Source: a virus. From it: 22,343 bases of DNA. Position 1 is the first letter of the stretch; every line of letters starts with the position of its first letter. Position numbers and translations under genes: made by a program. Below the pieces are notes generated by a model that was not told the DNA's origin, searched no databases, and saw nothing but the letters and a program-made list of their open reading frames with translations. The stretch covers positions 1 through 22,343 of the IMG/VR virus record IMGVR_UViG_3300042368_000869; one strand, given 5' to 3'. Positions 13,467 through 22,275 of the stretch are shown here, piece by piece.

Positions 13467-14797
13467 AAAAAACCTTTTTGTGAATAATCGCTAAACTTCA
13501 TTAATGGACCATTAAATTTAACCGGGAAGGTGCTTGTATCCCCATCCCGAAACTTTGCAATATCAACAATGCAAAGGTCTTTAACAGGATAGGAATCATT
13601 GTCAAAATCAACTGATTCAGTCATCTTGTAATATTCAGGTCGCATCAGGAATATAACCATGTTTGCATCCTGTTCAATTGAACCTGATTCCCTTAGGTCT
13701 GATAATTGAGGCATCTTAGAAGGTCTTGATTCAACTGCTCTGGACAATTGCGATAAGGCAATGATAGGAATATTTAAGTCCTTTGCCAATACTTTCAAGC
13801 CTCTGGATATCTCAGCAATTTCACCCTCTCTATTTTGGCCTTTTTTATTTTGCCCTCCCATCAATTGCAGGTAATCAACTACCAACAATTTAATACCAAA
13901 CTTTTTTTTCCACATCAAAGCCTTTGAACGTAGCTTCCTTATGTTTAGCCCTGCTTCATCATTGATTTGCAATGGCCAGTTTCTAACCCGATTTGCGGAA
14001 CTGTAAAGCCTTTCTCTATCGTAGTTATCTAAGATGTTTCTTTTAATCTTAAAGGCAAATACATCTGAATCCTGACTAATCATTCTTTCAATTAATTGCT
14101 CACTTGACATTTCCAGACTGAACATCCCGGTAGGTACATTGGCAATTGATAGGTTTCTAAGAATCGATAAGACAAAAGCCGTTTTTCCTTGCCCTGGTCT
14201 GGCAGCCAAAATGATTAAATCGGTATCAACTAAACCGCCTGTCTTTTCATCTACTATCTGAATGCCCGTAGACAGCCCTGCGAGGCCCGTAGCGTTGTGT
14301 TCTTGCCATTTCTGGCTTACATCATACACAACTGTTTGAATCGTCCTCTCGTCCTCTGTAATGACTTGCTTCATCAGGTCATCAAGTCCATCATGGATCT
14401 TTGCTACGGTATCGAATACGTCATCGGTTTCCGATAATGAGCAGTTCAAAAGTTTTGCACCCATCTGGCCAATTTCTCTTTTCAAAAAGTTTTCAAGAAG
14501 AATTGAAATGTGGACTTCGATGTGTGCAGTTGATGAAACCTTTTCTGATAGCTGTGTCAGCTTCCTAGCACCTCCGATTGATTTATACTGACCAATACTT
14601 TTTAATTCGTGGGCAATGGTTATAAGGTCAATTTTTTTTGAATCTTTAATGAAGTCGAGGAAAATGCCGGCCAGAATCCTATGGTTTTCTAATTCAAAGA
14701 CATTTACGGATTGAATACGATTTGAAAATTCTATCTGGGCTTCTTTGTCCAGTAAGACTGAGCCTAATACTATTTCTTCAATTATCTGATTTTCCAT
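13463..14797 (-). CDS. dnaB: DnaB-family replicative helicase
   Basis: The product has 444 residues, slightly shorter than E. coli DnaB (471). It unwinds DNA at the phage replication fork as a hexamer. The N-terminal DnaB domain covers about 1-120 and opens with 'EIVLGSVLLDKEA'. The RecA-like C-terminal domain begins near 170 and contains Walker A 'ARPGQGKT' (199-206), 'MFSLEMSSEQLIERM' (225-239), Walker B 'LLVVDYLQL' (304-312), 'IIALSQLSR' (345-353), 'DLRESGSIEQDAN' (367-379) and the late 'KFRDG' (415-419). All expected catalytic residues are present. Its start lies 20 bases inside the upstream DUF6291 gene, so the two are translationally linked, in keeping with an initiator/loader and helicase pair. 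Confidence 0.95.
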   Translation of the reverse strand: MENQIIEEIVLGSVLLDKEAQIEFSNRIQSVNVFELENHRILAGIFLDFIKDSKKIDLITIAHELKSIGQYKSIGGARKLTQLSEKVSSTAHIEVHISILLENFLKREIGQMGAKLLNCSLSETDDVFDTVAKIHDGLDDLMKQVITEDERTIQTVVYDVSQKWQEHNATGLAGLSTGIQIVDEKTGGLVDTDLIILAARPGQGKTAFVLSILRNLSIANVPTGMFSLEMSSEQLIERMISQDSDVFAFKIKRNILDNYDRERLYSSANRVRNWPLQINDEAGLNIRKLRSKALMWKKKFGIKLLVVDYLQLMGGQNKKGQNREGEIAEISRGLKVLAKDLNIPIIALSQLSRAVESRPSKMPQLSDLRESGSIEQDANMVIFLMRPEYYKMTESVDFDNDSYPVKDLCIVDIAKFRDGDTSTFPVKFNGPLMKFSDYSQKGFL

Positions 14798-15479
14798 TTT
14801 TAAAAGCTAATTTGGTTGATGTTAATTGTTGATTTTCAAAATTGGTAGGTACAGGTTTAAGATGGGTAATTGTATTTTTTAGTTTTAGTTTCCAGTTTTT
14901 AATCTTATTTCCATTCCCATCTTTCCAACCATCATCAATCCAAGTTTCAAATTTTGCTTTTACAGCAAACAGCCTATTGGGAAATTCTTTTTCTAATTCT
15001 GTTTTGTAGTAAGAAATAAATTCTTCTTCAGTTGGGATTTCTGTTTTAGCTAAAAGTTTTAAAAATTTAGGTTCATCAATAAAAATAACATTATCATTTA
15101 CATTTTCATTTACAGTATCACTAACAGTAACATTATCATTAACACTTACAGTTATGTTTGTTATCGGATTTATAACACTGTTATCGCTTGTTATACTTTG
15201 TTTTTCTTCGTTATGTTTTGCCCATCTGGATTCCATACCTTTTTTACCAGCTTCTGACTTTTGATTTTTTTTAAACTCCCAATCTTTTAAATTCCTTTTT
15301 AATTGTTGTTTAATTGGTTCAAATGCAATTTTAGTAATCCTATCTGGTGGCTCAGGATCTTCATCATTTACATACCTAAAAATGTGTTTAATTAACCTTC
15401 CTGCTTCATCATCGTCAAGTTCTTGAAACAAATGTGTTTGGTCGCAAAAAAGTATAAAAGACTTTTTATTATCAGCCAT
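14778..15479 (-). CDS. DUF6291-type phage replication protein
   Basis: The product has 233 residues. The N-terminus (about 1-70) matches DUF6291: 'KSFILFCDQTHLFQELDDDE', then 'GRLIKHIFRYVNDEDPEPP', then a basic 'AFEPIKQQLKRNLKDWE'. This domain is frequent in Bacteroidota phage replication initiator or replisome-organiser genes. Residues about 95-125 are a low-complexity Val/Asn/Asp linker ('ITVSVNDNVTVSDTVNENV'), followed by a C-terminal domain ('FAVKAKFETWIDDGWKDG'). Position directly before DnaB supports an origin-binding or helicase-loading role. The ATG at 15479 was chosen because the longer in-frame start (TTG at 15548) lies inside a structured leader that follows a promoter at 15590. 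Confidence 0.75.
   Translation of the reverse strand: MADNKKSFILFCDQTHLFQELDDDEAGRLIKHIFRYVNDEDPEPPDRITKIAFEPIKQQLKRNLKDWEFKKNQKSEAGKKGMESRWAKHNEEKQSITSDNSVINPITNITVSVNDNVTVSDTVNENVNDNVIFIDEPKFLKLLAKTEIPTEEEFISYYKTELEKEFPNRLFAVKAKFETWIDDGWKDGNGNKIKNWKLKLKNTITHLKPVPTNFENQQLTSTKLAFKNGKSDN
15087..15215 (-). repeat. Iteron-like repeats inside the replication gene
   Basis: Within the DUF6291 linker-coding DNA, GTTAT (plus strand; ATAAC on the coding strand) occurs at 15151, 15160, 15180, 15190 and 15210, spaced 9, 20, 10 and 20 bases and so on nearly one face of the helix. GTTATCG occurs exactly twice. The 12-base word AACATTATCATT is repeated at 15087 and 15129. Lambdoid phages place their origin iterons in the same position, inside the initiator gene. 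Low-complexity coding could also produce some repetition. Confidence 0.4.
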
Positions 15480-15585
15480 AAAATAAAGAAGCCCATCGTC
15501 AGGAGGTAGGAGTCTCCATCGGATAGGCTTTTGTTGGTTTAAAACCAATATTTTGTAACGGCTCCTACCCCGCTAGCCTTTCGGC
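15480..15585 (-). promoter_or_regulatory. Candidate structured leader RNA with a pseudoknot
   Basis: On the minus strand, from promoter to ATG, four pairings can be read. First is a 5' hairpin GCC-GAAA-GGC (15576-15585) with a GNRA tetraloop, which marks this strand as the RNA. Second is a 10-pair helix between 15562-15571 and 15503-15512 (GGTAGGAG with CTCCTACC, plus one G-U and one G-C pair). Third is a 5-pair hairpin at 15534-15548. Fourth is a 9-pair helix (one wobble) between 15522-15530 and 15489-15497, ending nine bases before the start codon. The second helix pairs the loop of the fourth with upstream sequence, so together they form a pseudoknot. It heads the replication-glycosyltransferase operon. 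I do not recognise the class. Confidence 0.5.
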
Positions 15586-15589
15586 AATG

Positions 15590-15619
15590 CAAATATAACA
15601 ATTAAAAATATAATGCAAT
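15590..15619 (-). promoter_or_regulatory. Promoter of the replication operon
   Basis: A perfect -7 box TATATTTG (minus strand, 15590-15597) has a -33-like ATTG at 15616-15619 after an 18-base spacer. Transcription should begin near 15583-15586, just at the GNRA hairpin. It overlaps the end of the gene ending at 15602. Confidence 0.6.
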
Positions 15620-16150
15620 CAACCAAAGTGCAAAAAAGCACAAAGTTGATGCCCATAGCATGAAGTTGTTGAATCTTAACTTGTCAATCAGTCTTTCAGA
15701 CTTTTCATTTTTGGTCATTTCCATGAGGGCGATTTTATCCAACTTTTCAAAGTTTGATTTGTACTCATTGGCATCAGCAGTTAAACGAATCTTATCCATT
15801 TCTAACTCATCAATCCTTTCCTTATTAGTCTTATTGGCAACATCTCGGAGGTTTTCGGATTTGGTCAGTTGTTCATCCAATTCATTGCACCGATTGAAGT
15901 ACCTTCTGCCATACTCGTATCTGGTTTTAGATTCTCTTTCTAGTTCTTCAACCCTTGCGATTTCTCGCAGGATTTGAGCAGAACTATAAAACACATCCCT
16001 GATAGGTCCATCAATATGTAGATGGTAGTTGATTGCCCAAATTTCTAATCCATCGTCTTTTACTTCTTTGTGGGATAAAACTAACTTTCCCCGGCCAACT
16101 CCAATGCGTAGTCCAGGCTTAAGTTCTAATGGCATATTTTTCTCTTTCAT
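15602..16150 (-). CDS. Coiled-coil protein with C-terminal membrane anchor
   Basis: The product has 182 residues. An N-terminal domain of about 60 residues ('GLRIGVGRGKLVLSHKEV', 'WAINYHLHI') is followed by a long coiled coil (about 64-155, Glu/Lys/Arg/Leu-rich). A single hydrophobic segment at the very C-terminus ('FMLWASTLCFFALWLIALYF') matches a tail-anchored inner-membrane protein with its bulk in the cytoplasm. The ATG at 16150 was preferred: a longer frame begins with TTG at 16177, but that codon overlaps the -7 box. Function is unknown. Possible roles are membrane tethering of replication, superinfection exclusion or a lysis accessory; none is proven. Confidence 0.65.
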   Translation of the reverse strand: MKEKNMPLELKPGLRIGVGRGKLVLSHKEVKDDGLEIWAINYHLHIDGPIRDVFYSSAQILREIARVEELERESKTRYEYGRRYFNRCNELDEQLTKSENLRDVANKTNKERIDELEMDKIRLTADANEYKSNFEKLDKIALMEMTKNEKSERLIDKLRFNNFMLWASTLCFFALWLIALYF

Positions 16151-16211: not shown

Positions 16212-16634
16212 TCAAGATAAATAATTTTCAACTTCATAAATTACCTCATCAAGTGACCAACTAACTAAAACCTTGTATCCCCTCTTTTTGGCATTTTCTA
16301 AAAACATAATTTGATAATCCGTTGGTTTATTCTTTCCACATTTCAATTCAATAAAAAACCCTGCAAAACCTTTTCTGGGTTCAAAGATAAGGCAATCACT
16401 AACTCCCTTTTTAACTCCCTTTTTAGTCAGTAGGATGCCTTCCAGACTAAAGGTCAAACCTTTCTTTGTCGTGAATGTTTTGGTCTTTCTTTCGTTGGCC
16501 GGATGTGTCCACAAAAGCCCTTTAACATCGAGAAACCTAGCGACTGCAATTTGAAAAGAATCTTCGGTTCCTACATAAGGCTGAAAATTTGTTGGTTTCT
16601 GATTCTTAAGAAATTGCATAGAGAATGAATACAT
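16212..16634 (-). CDS. VRR-NUC domain nuclease
   Basis: The product has 140 residues, nearly all one VRR-NUC domain of the PD-(D/E)xK nuclease superfamily. The expected residues can be placed: E24 in 'TEDSFQIAVARFL', then 'GVKKGVSDCL' (73-82) with D80, 'FFIELK' (93-98) with E96 and K98, and Q108 in 'TDYQ'. Phage VRR-NUC proteins are stand-alone nucleases thought to process branched DNA or act in recombination or host DNA breakdown. The gene is divergent from the 16690 gene, and the TAATATTG -7-like box lies only 7 bases before the ATG. An internal ATG five codons in (16619) would give a normal leader and is also possible. Confidence 0.85.
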   Translation of the reverse strand: MYSFSMQFLKNQKPTNFQPYVGTEDSFQIAVARFLDVKGLLWTHPANERKTKTFTTKKGLTFSLEGILLTKKGVKKGVSDCLIFEPRKGFAGFFIELKCGKNKPTDYQIMFLENAKKRGYKVLVSWSLDEVIYEVENYLS

Positions 16635-17189: not shown

Positions 17190-17834
17190 ATGAGTGTTAA
17201 ATCGTTAATTATTAAAAAAATAACAAATGAGCAGGCTCAATCAATTGTAGTTAAAAATCATTATTTGCATAGAAAAGCCCCTTGTTCATTTGCTTTTGGA
17301 TTATTTGACCCTTTACAAATTGAATCTGGAAGATTATTTCAAGAAAGTAAAATTGTTGGTGTTGTTATGTATGGTACACCATCATCATCCCCATTAAGGG
17401 AAGGTATTTGTGGGCATGAAGAAAAGAATAATGTAATTGAATTAACTCGTTTATGGATTTCAGATGAAGTAGGTAAAAATGGAGAAAGTTATTTAATAGG
17501 AAACACAATCCCATTAGTTGGAAAAGAAATTATTGTTAGTTATGCAGAAATTCAACAAGGTCATTTAGGAATTGTTTATCAAGCTACTAATTGGATTTAT
17601 ACTGGATTATCAGCAAAAAGAACAAATTGGGATATAGAAGGCAATAAAAGCCATTCACAAACTCTTGCGGACCGATATACATCCAAAGAATTAAAAGAAA
17701 TGTTAGGAAGTTCTTTTAAGCAAGTTGAACGGCCTAGAAAACATAGATATGTTTATTTTAATTGTAACAAGTACAGAAAAAAGGAACTTATAGGAAAATT
17801 AAATTATCCTATTTTACCTTATCCTAAAAATTAA
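17190..17834 (+). CDS. mom: Mom-family DNA adenine modification protein
   Basis: The product has 214 residues. It resembles the phage Mu Mom family of acetyltransferase-fold proteins, which convert adenine in phage DNA to N6-methylcarbamoyladenine and so block host restriction enzymes. Matching blocks are 'NHYLHRKAPCSFAFGL' (23-38), 'KIVGVVMYGTPSSSPLR' (54-70), 'VIELTRLWISDE' (82-93) and 'YAEIQQGHLGIVYQATNW' (118-135), ending with 'RKHRYVYF'. The length is close to Mu Mom. In Mu, mom is tightly controlled to act late; here no such control is visible. It follows the small membrane protein by 9 bases and converges with the MuF gene 2 bases away. It is A/T-richer in wobble positions than the neighbouring MuF gene. 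Confidence 0.75.
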   Translation: MSVKSLIIKKITNEQAQSIVVKNHYLHRKAPCSFAFGLFDPLQIESGRLFQESKIVGVVMYGTPSSSPLREGICGHEEKNNVIELTRLWISDEVGKNGESYLIGNTIPLVGKEIIVSYAEIQQGHLGIVYQATNWIYTGLSAKRTNWDIEGNKSHSQTLADRYTSKELKEMLGSSFKQVERPRKHRYVYFNCNKYRKKELIGKLNYPILPYPKN

Positions 17835-18710: not shown

Positions 18711-18718
18711 CAAAATTA
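18711..18718 (-). promoter_or_regulatory. -7 box for the MuF gene, near-leaderless
   Basis: On the minus strand TAATTTTG is followed by CAAA and then the ATG, the same TAnnTTTG-N4-ATG geometry as the GT25 promoter. It overlaps the stop codon of the upstream gene. No convincing -33 box is present, so it may be weak, or MuF may be read mainly from upstream. Confidence 0.45.
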
Positions 18719-19180
18719 GCAAGCCAAACAATCAATTTTTTCCTTAATTGAAAAATCAATACTTACGAAATAACTTTCGAAGTTGAATTGGTCAATACCA
18801 AAGTAATTCTGGGCAATTGCCTTAGCATCGTTGTTGGTATCCCCTAATTGAACCTCCGATATACTATTGAGAATATAATTTAGATTATAATCATTTGAAG
18901 CAGTTTTGGAATTGGCTATCAATTTAAAATTAACCGTTCTGGAAAGAACCTGCTTCAAGCCTCTCCCATTCTCGTCATCAAGACTTGAATTTTCCCTGAC
19001 GAAGAACAGAACCAAGTCGTAATTGTCATCGACTGAGCAAGGCTTTTCTGAATCAATTGACCTATAGTTGAAACCTTGATTTTCTGTAATAACCTCATGG
19101 GATTCCCCATAGTTTAAAATCTTGATTTTCAAAAGTCTTTCGATTTCAGAACATATTGTTTTTAAAGGTCCGTTTTTCAT
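18716..19180 (-). CDS. Short paralogue of the fibre N-terminal domain
   Basis: The product has 154 residues and aligns over its whole length with residues 1-156 of the collagen-like fibre at 21010-22275. Shared blocks include 'SEIERLL', 'ITENQGFNYRSIDSEKPCSV', 'DDNYDLVLFFVRENS' and 'LIANSK', and both end their shared part at 'IDC'. The protein stops exactly where the fibre's Cys-rich joint and collagen start. It is therefore either a stand-alone virion adaptor made of the same domain or the remains of a second fibre that lost its shaft. The domain itself is unrecognised; being N-terminal on a fibre, it probably attaches to the virion or has a tail-completion-like fold. Confidence 0.7.
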   Translation of the reverse strand: MKNGPLKTICSEIERLLKIKILNYGESHEVITENQGFNYRSIDSEKPCSVDDNYDLVLFFVRENSSLDDENGRGLKQVLSRTVNFKLIANSKTASNDYNLNYILNSISEVQLGDTNNDAKAIAQNYFGIDQFNFESYFVSIDFSIKEKIDCLAC

Positions 19181-21009: not shown

Positions 21010-22275
21010 TTAATTGAAGTTCAAAAAGTTAAATAAAAAGTTAGTTGTGTTTTCTCCGCTTACACCATTTGCACCTGCCGGCCCCTGTGGACCTGTTGGC
21101 CCTGCTGGGCCTTGTGGACCTATTGGCCCTTGCGGACCTTCCGGTCCTTGAAGCAATAAAGCAACAATTAAATTATGGTTGTTTGCAAAGTTCGTTGTTC
21201 CAGTCCCTCCAGAAGAAACTAAGGTTACAGGTAAAATCCAATAGTTATTTGTTCCAGTAATTAAAGTTGGAAGGGCATTAATTTCCCAAGTCTGAAAATT
21301 TGCACTTTGAGTTTTATCTTGAATGATTATGGTAGTTCCAACTATTATCAAAGCTAAAAAAACATCAATATCAATCGAATCATCTGTAAGATGTGAGATG
21401 TTTATCTGAGTGGAATTTATCTGTGTCGCATTATTCCAAAGTAATCGTCCAGGTGTAGGGTTTCCGCTTGTTGATGTTGTCCTTGCATTGTATAAGAATA
21501 AAGTAGCAGATTCACCGTTTTCGCCTGCTGGTCCCTGTGGTCCTTCTGGTCCTTGCGGTCCTTCTGGCCCTTGTGGACCTTGATCGCCTTGATCTCCCTT
21601 GTCACCTTTATCACCTTTGTCGCCTTGATCACCCTTGTCACCTTTATCCCCTTGATCACCTTTGTCACCTTTATCACCCTGATCACCCTTGTCACCTTTA
21701 TCCCCTTGATCACCTTTTGGACCCTGCGGCCCTTCTGGCCCTATTGGACCTTCTGGACCCTGTGGTCCTTGCGGTCCAGGTGGGCAATTGCATCCTGTTT
21801 CTGGAGGGCAAGAGTTTGAACAATCAATTAATTCAATCATTGAAAAGTCAATGGATAAAAAGTAAGTCGTAAAATCGTAATTGTCGATTCCAAAGTATGT
21901 CTGTGCAATTGCCCTTCCATCATTATTTGTGTTTCCAATTAATTGAACCTCTTTGATATTATTAAGAATGAAATTCAAATTGTAATCATTCGATTCACTT
22001 TTTGAATTTGCTATCAACTTGTAATTTACATTTCTCGAAAGCTTTTGTTTTAACCCTCGGCCCTGTTCAGTATTTGGAGTTGAATTTTCTCGAACAAAGA
22101 ATAACACTAAATCATAATTGTCATCAACTGAGCAAGGCTTTTCTGAATCAATAGACCGATAATTGAAACCTTGATTTTCTGTAATTACTTTGTGACTTTC
22201 GCCATAGTTCAGAACTTTAATATTTAAAAGCCTTTCAATTTCAGATGAGATTTTTGAAAGAAGGGTATTTTTCAT
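21010..22275 (-). CDS. Collagen-like phage fibre protein
   Basis: The product has 421 residues. Residues 1-150 are the N-terminal domain shared with the gene at 18716. A Cys-rich joint follows (C152, C156, C162, C164). Residues 167-256 are 30 uninterrupted Gly-X-Y triplets, 257-376 a globular beta-rich domain ('GRLLWNNATQINSTQINISH', 'YWILPVTLVSSGG') of the type found on phage collagen-like fibres, and 377-409 a second run of 11 triplets. The protein then ends abruptly with a short Asn/Phe/Leu tail ('NFLFNFLNFN'). It should trimerise through the collagen helix and project from the virion to contact host cells. The Cys residues could cross-link the three chains. The lack of a C-terminal knob after the second collagen run is unusual and may mean truncation. 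Confidence 0.85.
   Translation of the reverse strand: MKNTLLSKISSEIERLLNIKVLNYGESHKVITENQGFNYRSIDSEKPCSVDDNYDLVLFFVRENSTPNTEQGRGLKQKLSRNVNYKLIANSKSESNDYNLNFILNNIKEVQLIGNTNNDGRAIAQTYFGIDNYDFTTYFLSIDFSMIELIDCSNSCPPETGCNCPPGPQGPQGPEGPIGPEGPQGPKGDQGDKGDKGDQGDKGDKGDQGDKGDKGDQGDKGDKGDKGDQGDQGPQGPEGPQGPEGPQGPAGENGESATLFLYNARTTSTSGNPTPGRLLWNNATQINSTQINISHLTDDSIDIDVFLALIIVGTTIIIQDKTQSANFQTWEINALPTLITGTNNYWILPVTLVSSGGTGTTNFANNHNLIVALLLQGPEGPQGPIGPQGPAGPTGPQGPAGANGVSGENTTNFLFNFLNFN
21580..21714 (-). repeat. 27-base tandem repeats coding for Gly-Asp-Gln/Lys triplets
   Basis: Residues 188-232 of the fibre are four copies of GDQGDKGDK plus three further triplets, from four 27-base DNA units that differ mainly at wobble positions. 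Each contains GATCA. Such repeats can expand or contract by slippage or recombination, changing fibre length. Confidence 0.85.

Follow-up and report, generated by a model that had tools for sequence, protein, structure and literature searches.

Here we describe a structured leader RNA that precedes the replication genes in a viral stretch of 22,343 nucleotides (the window). On our best reading, it belongs to a family of phage "kissing-loop" leaders that would gate genes of DNA metabolism. Its fixed position between promoter and start codon, its U-tract and the G.U-rich covariation of its relatives make it very probable that it is a cis-acting leader RNA. Because of the U-tract, the best single account of its function is that the replication transcript opens with a cis-acting transcription attenuator, in which the kiss would prepare the hairpin; we put the probability of this at about 0.5. 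Comparison among related leaders supports the predicted helices, the kissing interaction, the promoter, the placement ahead of the ATG, the lack of ties to any one type of gene and, in most members, the U-tract.

The leader upstream of DUF6291

Read on the minus strand from 15597 down, the sequence runs from a perfect -7 promoter box of the Bacteroidota type, TATATTTG (15597–15590), through CATTGCCGAAAGGCTAGCGGGGTAGGAGCCGTTACAAAATATTGGTTTTAAACCAACAAAAGCCTATCCGATGGAGACTCCTACCTCCTGACGATGGGCTTCTTTATTTT, to the ATG (15479–15477) of the DUF6291 gene (14778–15479, 233 aa; Pfam DUF6291, E 2.1e-23), after which comes a DnaB helicase gene (14797–13463; Pfam DnaB_C, E 1.1e-84). A candidate -33 element, TTG, lies at 15622–15620, and transcription probably starts near 15584. 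With gene and promoter both on the minus strand, a plus-strand reading of the leader is ruled out. The original prediction had placed such a box ahead of DUF6291, followed by a GNRA hairpin, a ten-pair helix, a small hairpin and a nine-pair helix; the box is there, and all four helices are found on the minus strand within the interval from TATATTTG to the DUF6291 ATG.

The first of these, HP0 (GCC-GAAA-GGC, 15576–15585), is an extra 5′ module, shared with L076, L434 and L436 and present in altered versions in L002, L003, L157 and L263. It is followed by HP1 (TAGCGG, loop GGTAGGAG, CCGTTA; 15556–15575), whose loop holds the kissing strand P1a, GTAGGAG (15562–15568). P1a pairs with P1b, CTCCTAC (15512–15506). 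As a long-range helix the complementarity extends to ten pairs, one of them G.U, between GGGGTAGGAG (15571–15562) and CTCCTACCTC (15512–15503). A small A/T-rich spacer hairpin, TTGGTTTTAAACCAA (15534–15548), is retained in the four window-type leaders (window, L076, L434, L436) and is absent as a general feature of the family. The nine-pair helix, also with one G.U pair, joins P2a, AAGCCTATC (15522–15530), to P2b, GATGGGCTT (15489–15497), and ends 9 bases before the ATG. Between its strands sits P3, a hairpin with an internal loop (CGAT / GGAG-ACTCCTAC-CTCC / TGAC, 15498–15521), which carries P1b in its loop. The T-rich tail from P2b to the start codon, CTTTATTTT (15480–15488), is an imperfect U-tract. 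P2 and P3, the latter with an 8-base loop, both appear in the minimum-energy fold computed without a pseudoknot (z = -2.0). Two elements, HP1 and P3, had thus been missed by the original prediction. Its ten-pair helix holds as complementarity; the form found in the family is a 7-pair loop-loop kiss, and the full ten pairs would require the flanking stems to open.

With the crossing helices included, the window leader scores -35.2, compared with a shuffle mean of -22.8, and is matched by 2 of 100 dinucleotide shuffles. We take as decisive for the predicted pseudoknot that it recurs with unrelated sequences in many homologous leaders. Compensatory changes of the kind that the prediction had proposed to look for in such leaders are found, both in the AGUA subclass described below and in P2 of the window subtype, where an A-U pair in the window corresponds to G-C in L076, L434 and L436. 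Read by eye, HP1 also varies: its counterpart in L434 and L436 is AATCGG-GGTAGGAG-CCGATT, with two double changes relative to the window, and that in L076 is CAGCGG with CCGTCTG. The internal loop is CGAU/UGAC in the window, CGAU/UGAA in L434 and L436, and UGAU/UGAU in L076. P1a is identical in the four window-type leaders, and other complementary pairs take its place elsewhere in the family. Since the kissing strands are invariant within the subtype, the window's own kiss rests on homology.

Several other genes in the window deserve mention. A match to a PHROG Holliday junction resolvase (16212–16634, minus strand; E 2.4e-15) lies upstream of the leader in the same orientation. A Mom family protein (17190–17834, plus strand; Pfam E 2.3e-44) suggests DNA modification by this phage. 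Two minus-strand genes (18716–19180 and 21010–22275) are closely similar over their first ~130 residues, and the larger (21010–22275) runs on into a long collagen-like GXX repeat; the pair looks like a duplicated tail-region module.

A family of leaders with one architecture

Relatives were collected in viral contigs, using as queries the DUF6291 protein and an alignment covering its residues 1–85, and by a single scan of bacterial and archaeal genomes; together, the scans yielded the leaders of ~100 DUF6291 genes. The detector used only two crossing helices, the second ending at most 40 nt from the start codon, and called a leader positive when no more than 2 of 100 shuffles did as well and the score was -27 or lower. 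Because P1 and P2 are chosen as the best pairs available, only the shuffle controls count. By this measure 39 leaders, in 26 clusters below 70% identity, are positive and 58 are negative. Almost all loci from bacterial genomes fall among the negatives, as do the majority of isolated phages. The structure is missing from DUF6291 genes at most bacterial and non-leader loci.

Comparison of the window leader with ~60 related leaders reveals one common architecture. In order, it consists of a TAnnTTTG box, HP1 with the first kissing strand in its loop, an A/U-rich spacer, the 5′ strand of P2, an internal loop, P3 with the second kissing strand in its loop, the other side of the internal loop, the 3′ strand of P2, usually a U-tract, and the ATG. 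The 3′ end of the structure lies 9–20 nt ahead of the start codon throughout. The window leader has each of the defining parts: promoter, HP1, P2-P3 hairpin, loop-loop complement, and an ATG within about 25 nt. Positive leaders share nearly no sequence; the pairing is kept. Thus GGTAGGAG/CTCCTACC in the window corresponds to GGGTCACAG/CTGTGACCC in L003, GTTGCGG/CCGCAAC in L019, ACAACCAC/GTGGTTGT in L042, CTTCTCAC/GTGAGAAG in L044 and AAGATTGACA/TGTCAATCTT in L130, a Pedobacter genome. DNA similarity to the window leader in the phage collection was limited to a 30-base match to a Chryseobacterium phage gene (E 0.3).

The internal loop defines subclasses, namely AGUA/GAA, whose sequence resembles the loop E motif, UGAA/GGAU, and the window subtype CGAU/UGAC. 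Six larger leaders before DUF6291 (L052, L053, L090, L110, L113, L126), of ~130 nt and with crossing helices, probably represent a further subclass; they show a possible third long-range pairing, TTGAC/GTCAA. In L072 and L078, also before DUF6291, the loop strand finds its partner in a copy 3′ of the U-tract rather than in an upstream hairpin; in L078 GTGAGCA pairs with TGCTCAC, and a further AGCTCAC lies close to the start. The copy on the Pedobacter sp. Leaf170 chromosome (L130, upstream of 6001) has an unusually long P2 of 19 bp. At L106:1939, a UGAA/GGAU-type leader with promoter and kiss GCGTCTCAC/GTGAGACGC lacks any 40-codon reading frame within 60 nt, and a second, different leader precedes DUF6291 on the same contig.

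Covariation, kissing and the U-tract

Part of the MAFFT alignment of the family was misaligned, and it was set aside in favor of another alignment. For 22 AGUA/GAA sequences, covariation in P2/P3 is 0.570, compared with 0.205 when shuffled (0 of 500 as high); 79.1% of cells are paired, and both sides have changed in 72 cells against a shuffled mean of 21.1. Sliding the partners by 1–3 columns, as a control on the same subclass, lowers covariation to at most 0.135. P2 and P3 contain many G.U pairs, which favors an RNA of this strand. These pairs, together with the fixed distance to the next start codon and the presence of the structure before endonuclease and methyltransferase genes, make it highly improbable that we are looking instead at a DNA element, such as a replication origin structure, or at a free-standing small RNA, even though the element adjoins replication genes, carries a promoter of its own and ends like a terminator.

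For the kiss, we used a scan that ignores it, requiring the internal-loop motif, P3, P2 and U-tract. A kiss of at least 6 bp is present in 42 of the 43 non-redundant matches, where shuffling the upstream sequence gives 17% and mismatching the leaders 26%; three of the 43 (L314, L349, L370) look like chance matches in coding sequence. All 11 UGAA/GGAU matches have a kiss of at least 7 bp where 29% would be expected, a weaker test because the longer loops of this subclass raise the expectation. An HP1 stem of at least 5 bp is found in 25 of 36 leaders (13.0 expected); this stricter test replaced a looser one that was too permissive (50 of 53, with 86% expected). P2 length and spacer length are not correlated, which lends no support to a strict rod geometry.

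The promoter and U-tract, neither of which the detector uses, are likewise enriched. The TAnnTTTG box, ending 4–26 nt upstream of P1a, occurs in 23 of 26 positive clusters and in 9 of 58 negative leaders, and the ten bases after P2 contain on average 7.0 T in positives versus 3.3 in negatives. Three of the 26 clusters have four or fewer T after P2, and the tail of the window, CTTTATTTT, is also a weak U-tract.

That internal-loop motifs recur within variable helices raises another possibility, that a phage or host protein, or RNA polymerase itself, docks on the leader and sets antitermination or timing, and that the kiss merely presents the motif. The location of the leader, where early-type transcripts begin, fits, with HK022 put as precedent (PMC9378689). 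We nevertheless regard docking as very unlikely: the motif varies by subclass, no candidate protein was identified, and put RNAs consist of two stem-loops, have no described kissing or pseudoknot, and leave the terminator outside (PMC9378689).

Genes and phages carrying the leader

The subtype GTTGGTAGGACAATC is present in 81 viral stretches, and its ~60 non-coding occurrences all lie 80–92 nt before a DUF6291 start, except one at a contig end. Other members precede winged-helix or DnaD-like replication initiators (L002, L003, L157, L254, L263), other primosomal or O-like genes (L264, L358, L434), BT4734-like primases (L261, L323), an MT-A70 methyltransferase (L100), and NUMOD3, NUMOD4 and HNH proteins (L242, L252, L276, L284, L115 and tooticki6-1). 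The family is thus specific neither to DUF6291 nor to replication operons. Among isolated phages, it is carried by Cellulophaga phi19:3, Flavobacterium 11b, Olleya Harreka_1, which is without an integrase (PMC8776804), and Flavobacterium tooticki6-1, which is virulent (PMC7077304). A covariance model of the AGUA subclass gave no match in 395 Bacteroidia genomes, under strict filters (14 candidates scored per genome) that lose weak matches.

Turnover and repeats of the kissing sequences

Leaders and their flanks differ in conservation. Between L002 and L003, identity is 87% in the upstream flank, 93% in the gene and only 52% in the leader (random 46%); conversely, the window and L076 are 89% identical in the leader, 65% at the gene start and 53% upstream. 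A leader can thus move or be exchanged without its gene. Kissing sequences are diverse: the 53 kiss-bearing leaders use 41 different ones, and two leaders on one contig can differ (GGGTCACAG and GGGTGAAG in L003; GTGGAAG and GTGCAT in L100).

Such hypervariability could mean that specificity is exerted in trans, as with P4 CI or P1 c4. The terminated RNA would accumulate, pair with nascent leaders of the same type and enforce termination, and loop sequences would define self-recognition groups for copy control or heteroimmunity. The alike flanks and unlike leaders of L002 and L003, and the paired unlike leaders of L003 and L100, are what this predicts, and where a third copy of the kissing strand exists (see below) the order repeat - complement - repeat is like seqA-seqB-seqC of P4 (PMC4825925). 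Against it, the partner in cis would outcompete pairing in trans, and kissing 7-mers show no excess elsewhere in the contigs (15, with 19.9 expected), which argues for a partner in cis. The leader also precedes homing endonucleases. Its occurrence in the virulent tooticki6-1 (PMC7077304) and integrase-less Harreka (PMC8776804) disfavors lysogenic immunity as a general role, at least in simple form. We consider action in trans doubtful on balance. An equally doubtful extension is that Bacteroidota phages use hypervariable kissing-loop RNAs as exchangeable specificity cassettes, self-recognizing in cis and, through the terminated RNA, in trans. If so, the dose of DNA-metabolism genes would be set by them, and phage populations would contain many RNA specificity groups blind to one another, even in the absence of lysogeny.

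Six leaders (L068, L127, L247, L272, L286, L296) repeat the first kissing strand once more, immediately 5′ of the ATG. Such third copies occur in 5 of 35 motif matches, plus L127, against 0.6% expected from mismatched leaders. The upstream repeat and its complement are found in all leaders, the downstream repeat only in these six and not in the window. There, the P3-loop strand could pair with the third copy instead of with HP1, which suggests an effect on translation in those six leaders. This bears on the main rival to attenuation, a translation switch in which the P3 loop pairs with either the HP1 loop or the start-codon region, so that structure near the ATG sets ribosome access without termination. 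The end of the structure 9–20 nt before the start codon throughout the family also speaks for such a switch. Most leaders, however, including that of the window, have no third copy, and a translation switch needs no U-tract, yet the U-tract is strongly enriched. As a general account of the family, we judge it unlikely.

Discussion

We favor transcription attenuation, with steps that would be as follows. Transcription would begin just 3′ of the TAnnTTTG promoter, and HP1 and P3 would fold as they emerge, their loops pairing over 6–9 bp. The kiss would keep the P3 hairpin poised, and P2 would then zip beside the U-tract just ahead of the start codon. Zipped P2 may halt RNA polymerase or, failing that, hinder initiation, so that less of the downstream gene is made. 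Internal-loop motifs (AGUA/GAA, UGAA/GGAU, tandem G.A) may shape the rod or bind a factor. Termination as the output, the order of folding, a relieving signal and any action in trans are inferences. By eye, we see no alternative pairing of P2a; no antiterminator is visible, because the kiss and P2 draw on separate bases, so that both can form at once.

The leader had been thought to be a cis-acting RNA or a riboswitch-like element, of no known riboswitch class. It is indeed structured and linked in cis to its gene, and a search of Rfam release 15 (4227 families) at gathering thresholds with the window and 18 related loci gave no match; sub-threshold matches in the window leader are chance-like (best E 2.8). 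A riboswitch finds no support, since there is no conserved, ligand-like aptamer core: the internal loops vary from one subclass to the next, and the helices are hypervariable. The leader also contains hammerhead-like CUGANGA and GAAA strings, which were dismissed because the adjoining stem is unpaired and Rfam gives no match. HDV-like, pistol and twister ribozymes were rejected on a comparison of topology, and a type III toxin-antitoxin system was rejected because the downstream genes are not ToxN-like.

The family is apparently undescribed. No earlier description was found in the literature searched, although it may be listed unnamed in structured-RNA discovery surveys; no such element turned up in the passages searched of a paper on structured RNAs of the human microbiome (PMC8040213), and no mention of DUF6291 was found in the literature searched. 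If correctly interpreted, these leaders would form a broad cis-regulatory RNA group in Bacteroidota phages, whose gene regulation is poorly known, and one RNA device would link replication initiators, primases, methyltransferases and homing-type endonucleases. Because loops are freely swapped while the shape is kept, the family offers a clean test of loop-loop control of a start-codon hairpin and, possibly, a toolkit for orthogonal expression control. Its presence in sequenced isolates makes it testable now.

Several known systems invite comparison. Like riboswitch or ribosomal-protein-type attenuators (the cis-regulatory leaders of Rfam), the present RNAs are structured leaders with a terminator-like hairpin before the start codon; unlike them, they have no conserved ligand core, are almost fully replaceable in sequence, and precede genes without a common metabolite. 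With the CI / seqA-seqC leader of phage P4, and with P1 and P7 c4 and N15 CA, the present family has several features in common: the leader is untranslated and belongs to a phage replication operon, transcription ends prematurely (putatively so here), and there are short complements, in some members with flanking repeats. The P4 RNA pairs with repeats on both sides, terminating the replication operon (PMC4825925). In contrast, the complements here would form a cis kissing-loop pseudoknot inside a terminator-like hairpin without an Rfam match, virulent phages are among the carriers, and some of the genes that follow encode endonucleases or methyltransferases. We regard the resemblance to P4 as one of design, and claim no membership in that system.

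HK022 put, which suppresses downstream termination by binding RNA polymerase (PMC9378689), is likewise a structured RNA of ~70–100 nt with two hairpins at the 5′ end of early phage transcripts, and affects termination, as proposed here. It differs in that no kissing loops or pseudoknot are described for it (PMC9378689). The phages that carry put are, moreover, gammaproteobacterial. In the ColE1 system, RNA I and RNA II engage, with Rop, in intermolecular loop-loop pairing of 6–8 bp and variable sequence, which acts on the replication primer. Variable loop-loop pairing is common to the ColE1 kissing complexes and the leaders described here, and recognition by shape is conceivable in both; the difference is that here both partners reside in one RNA, upstream of an mRNA.
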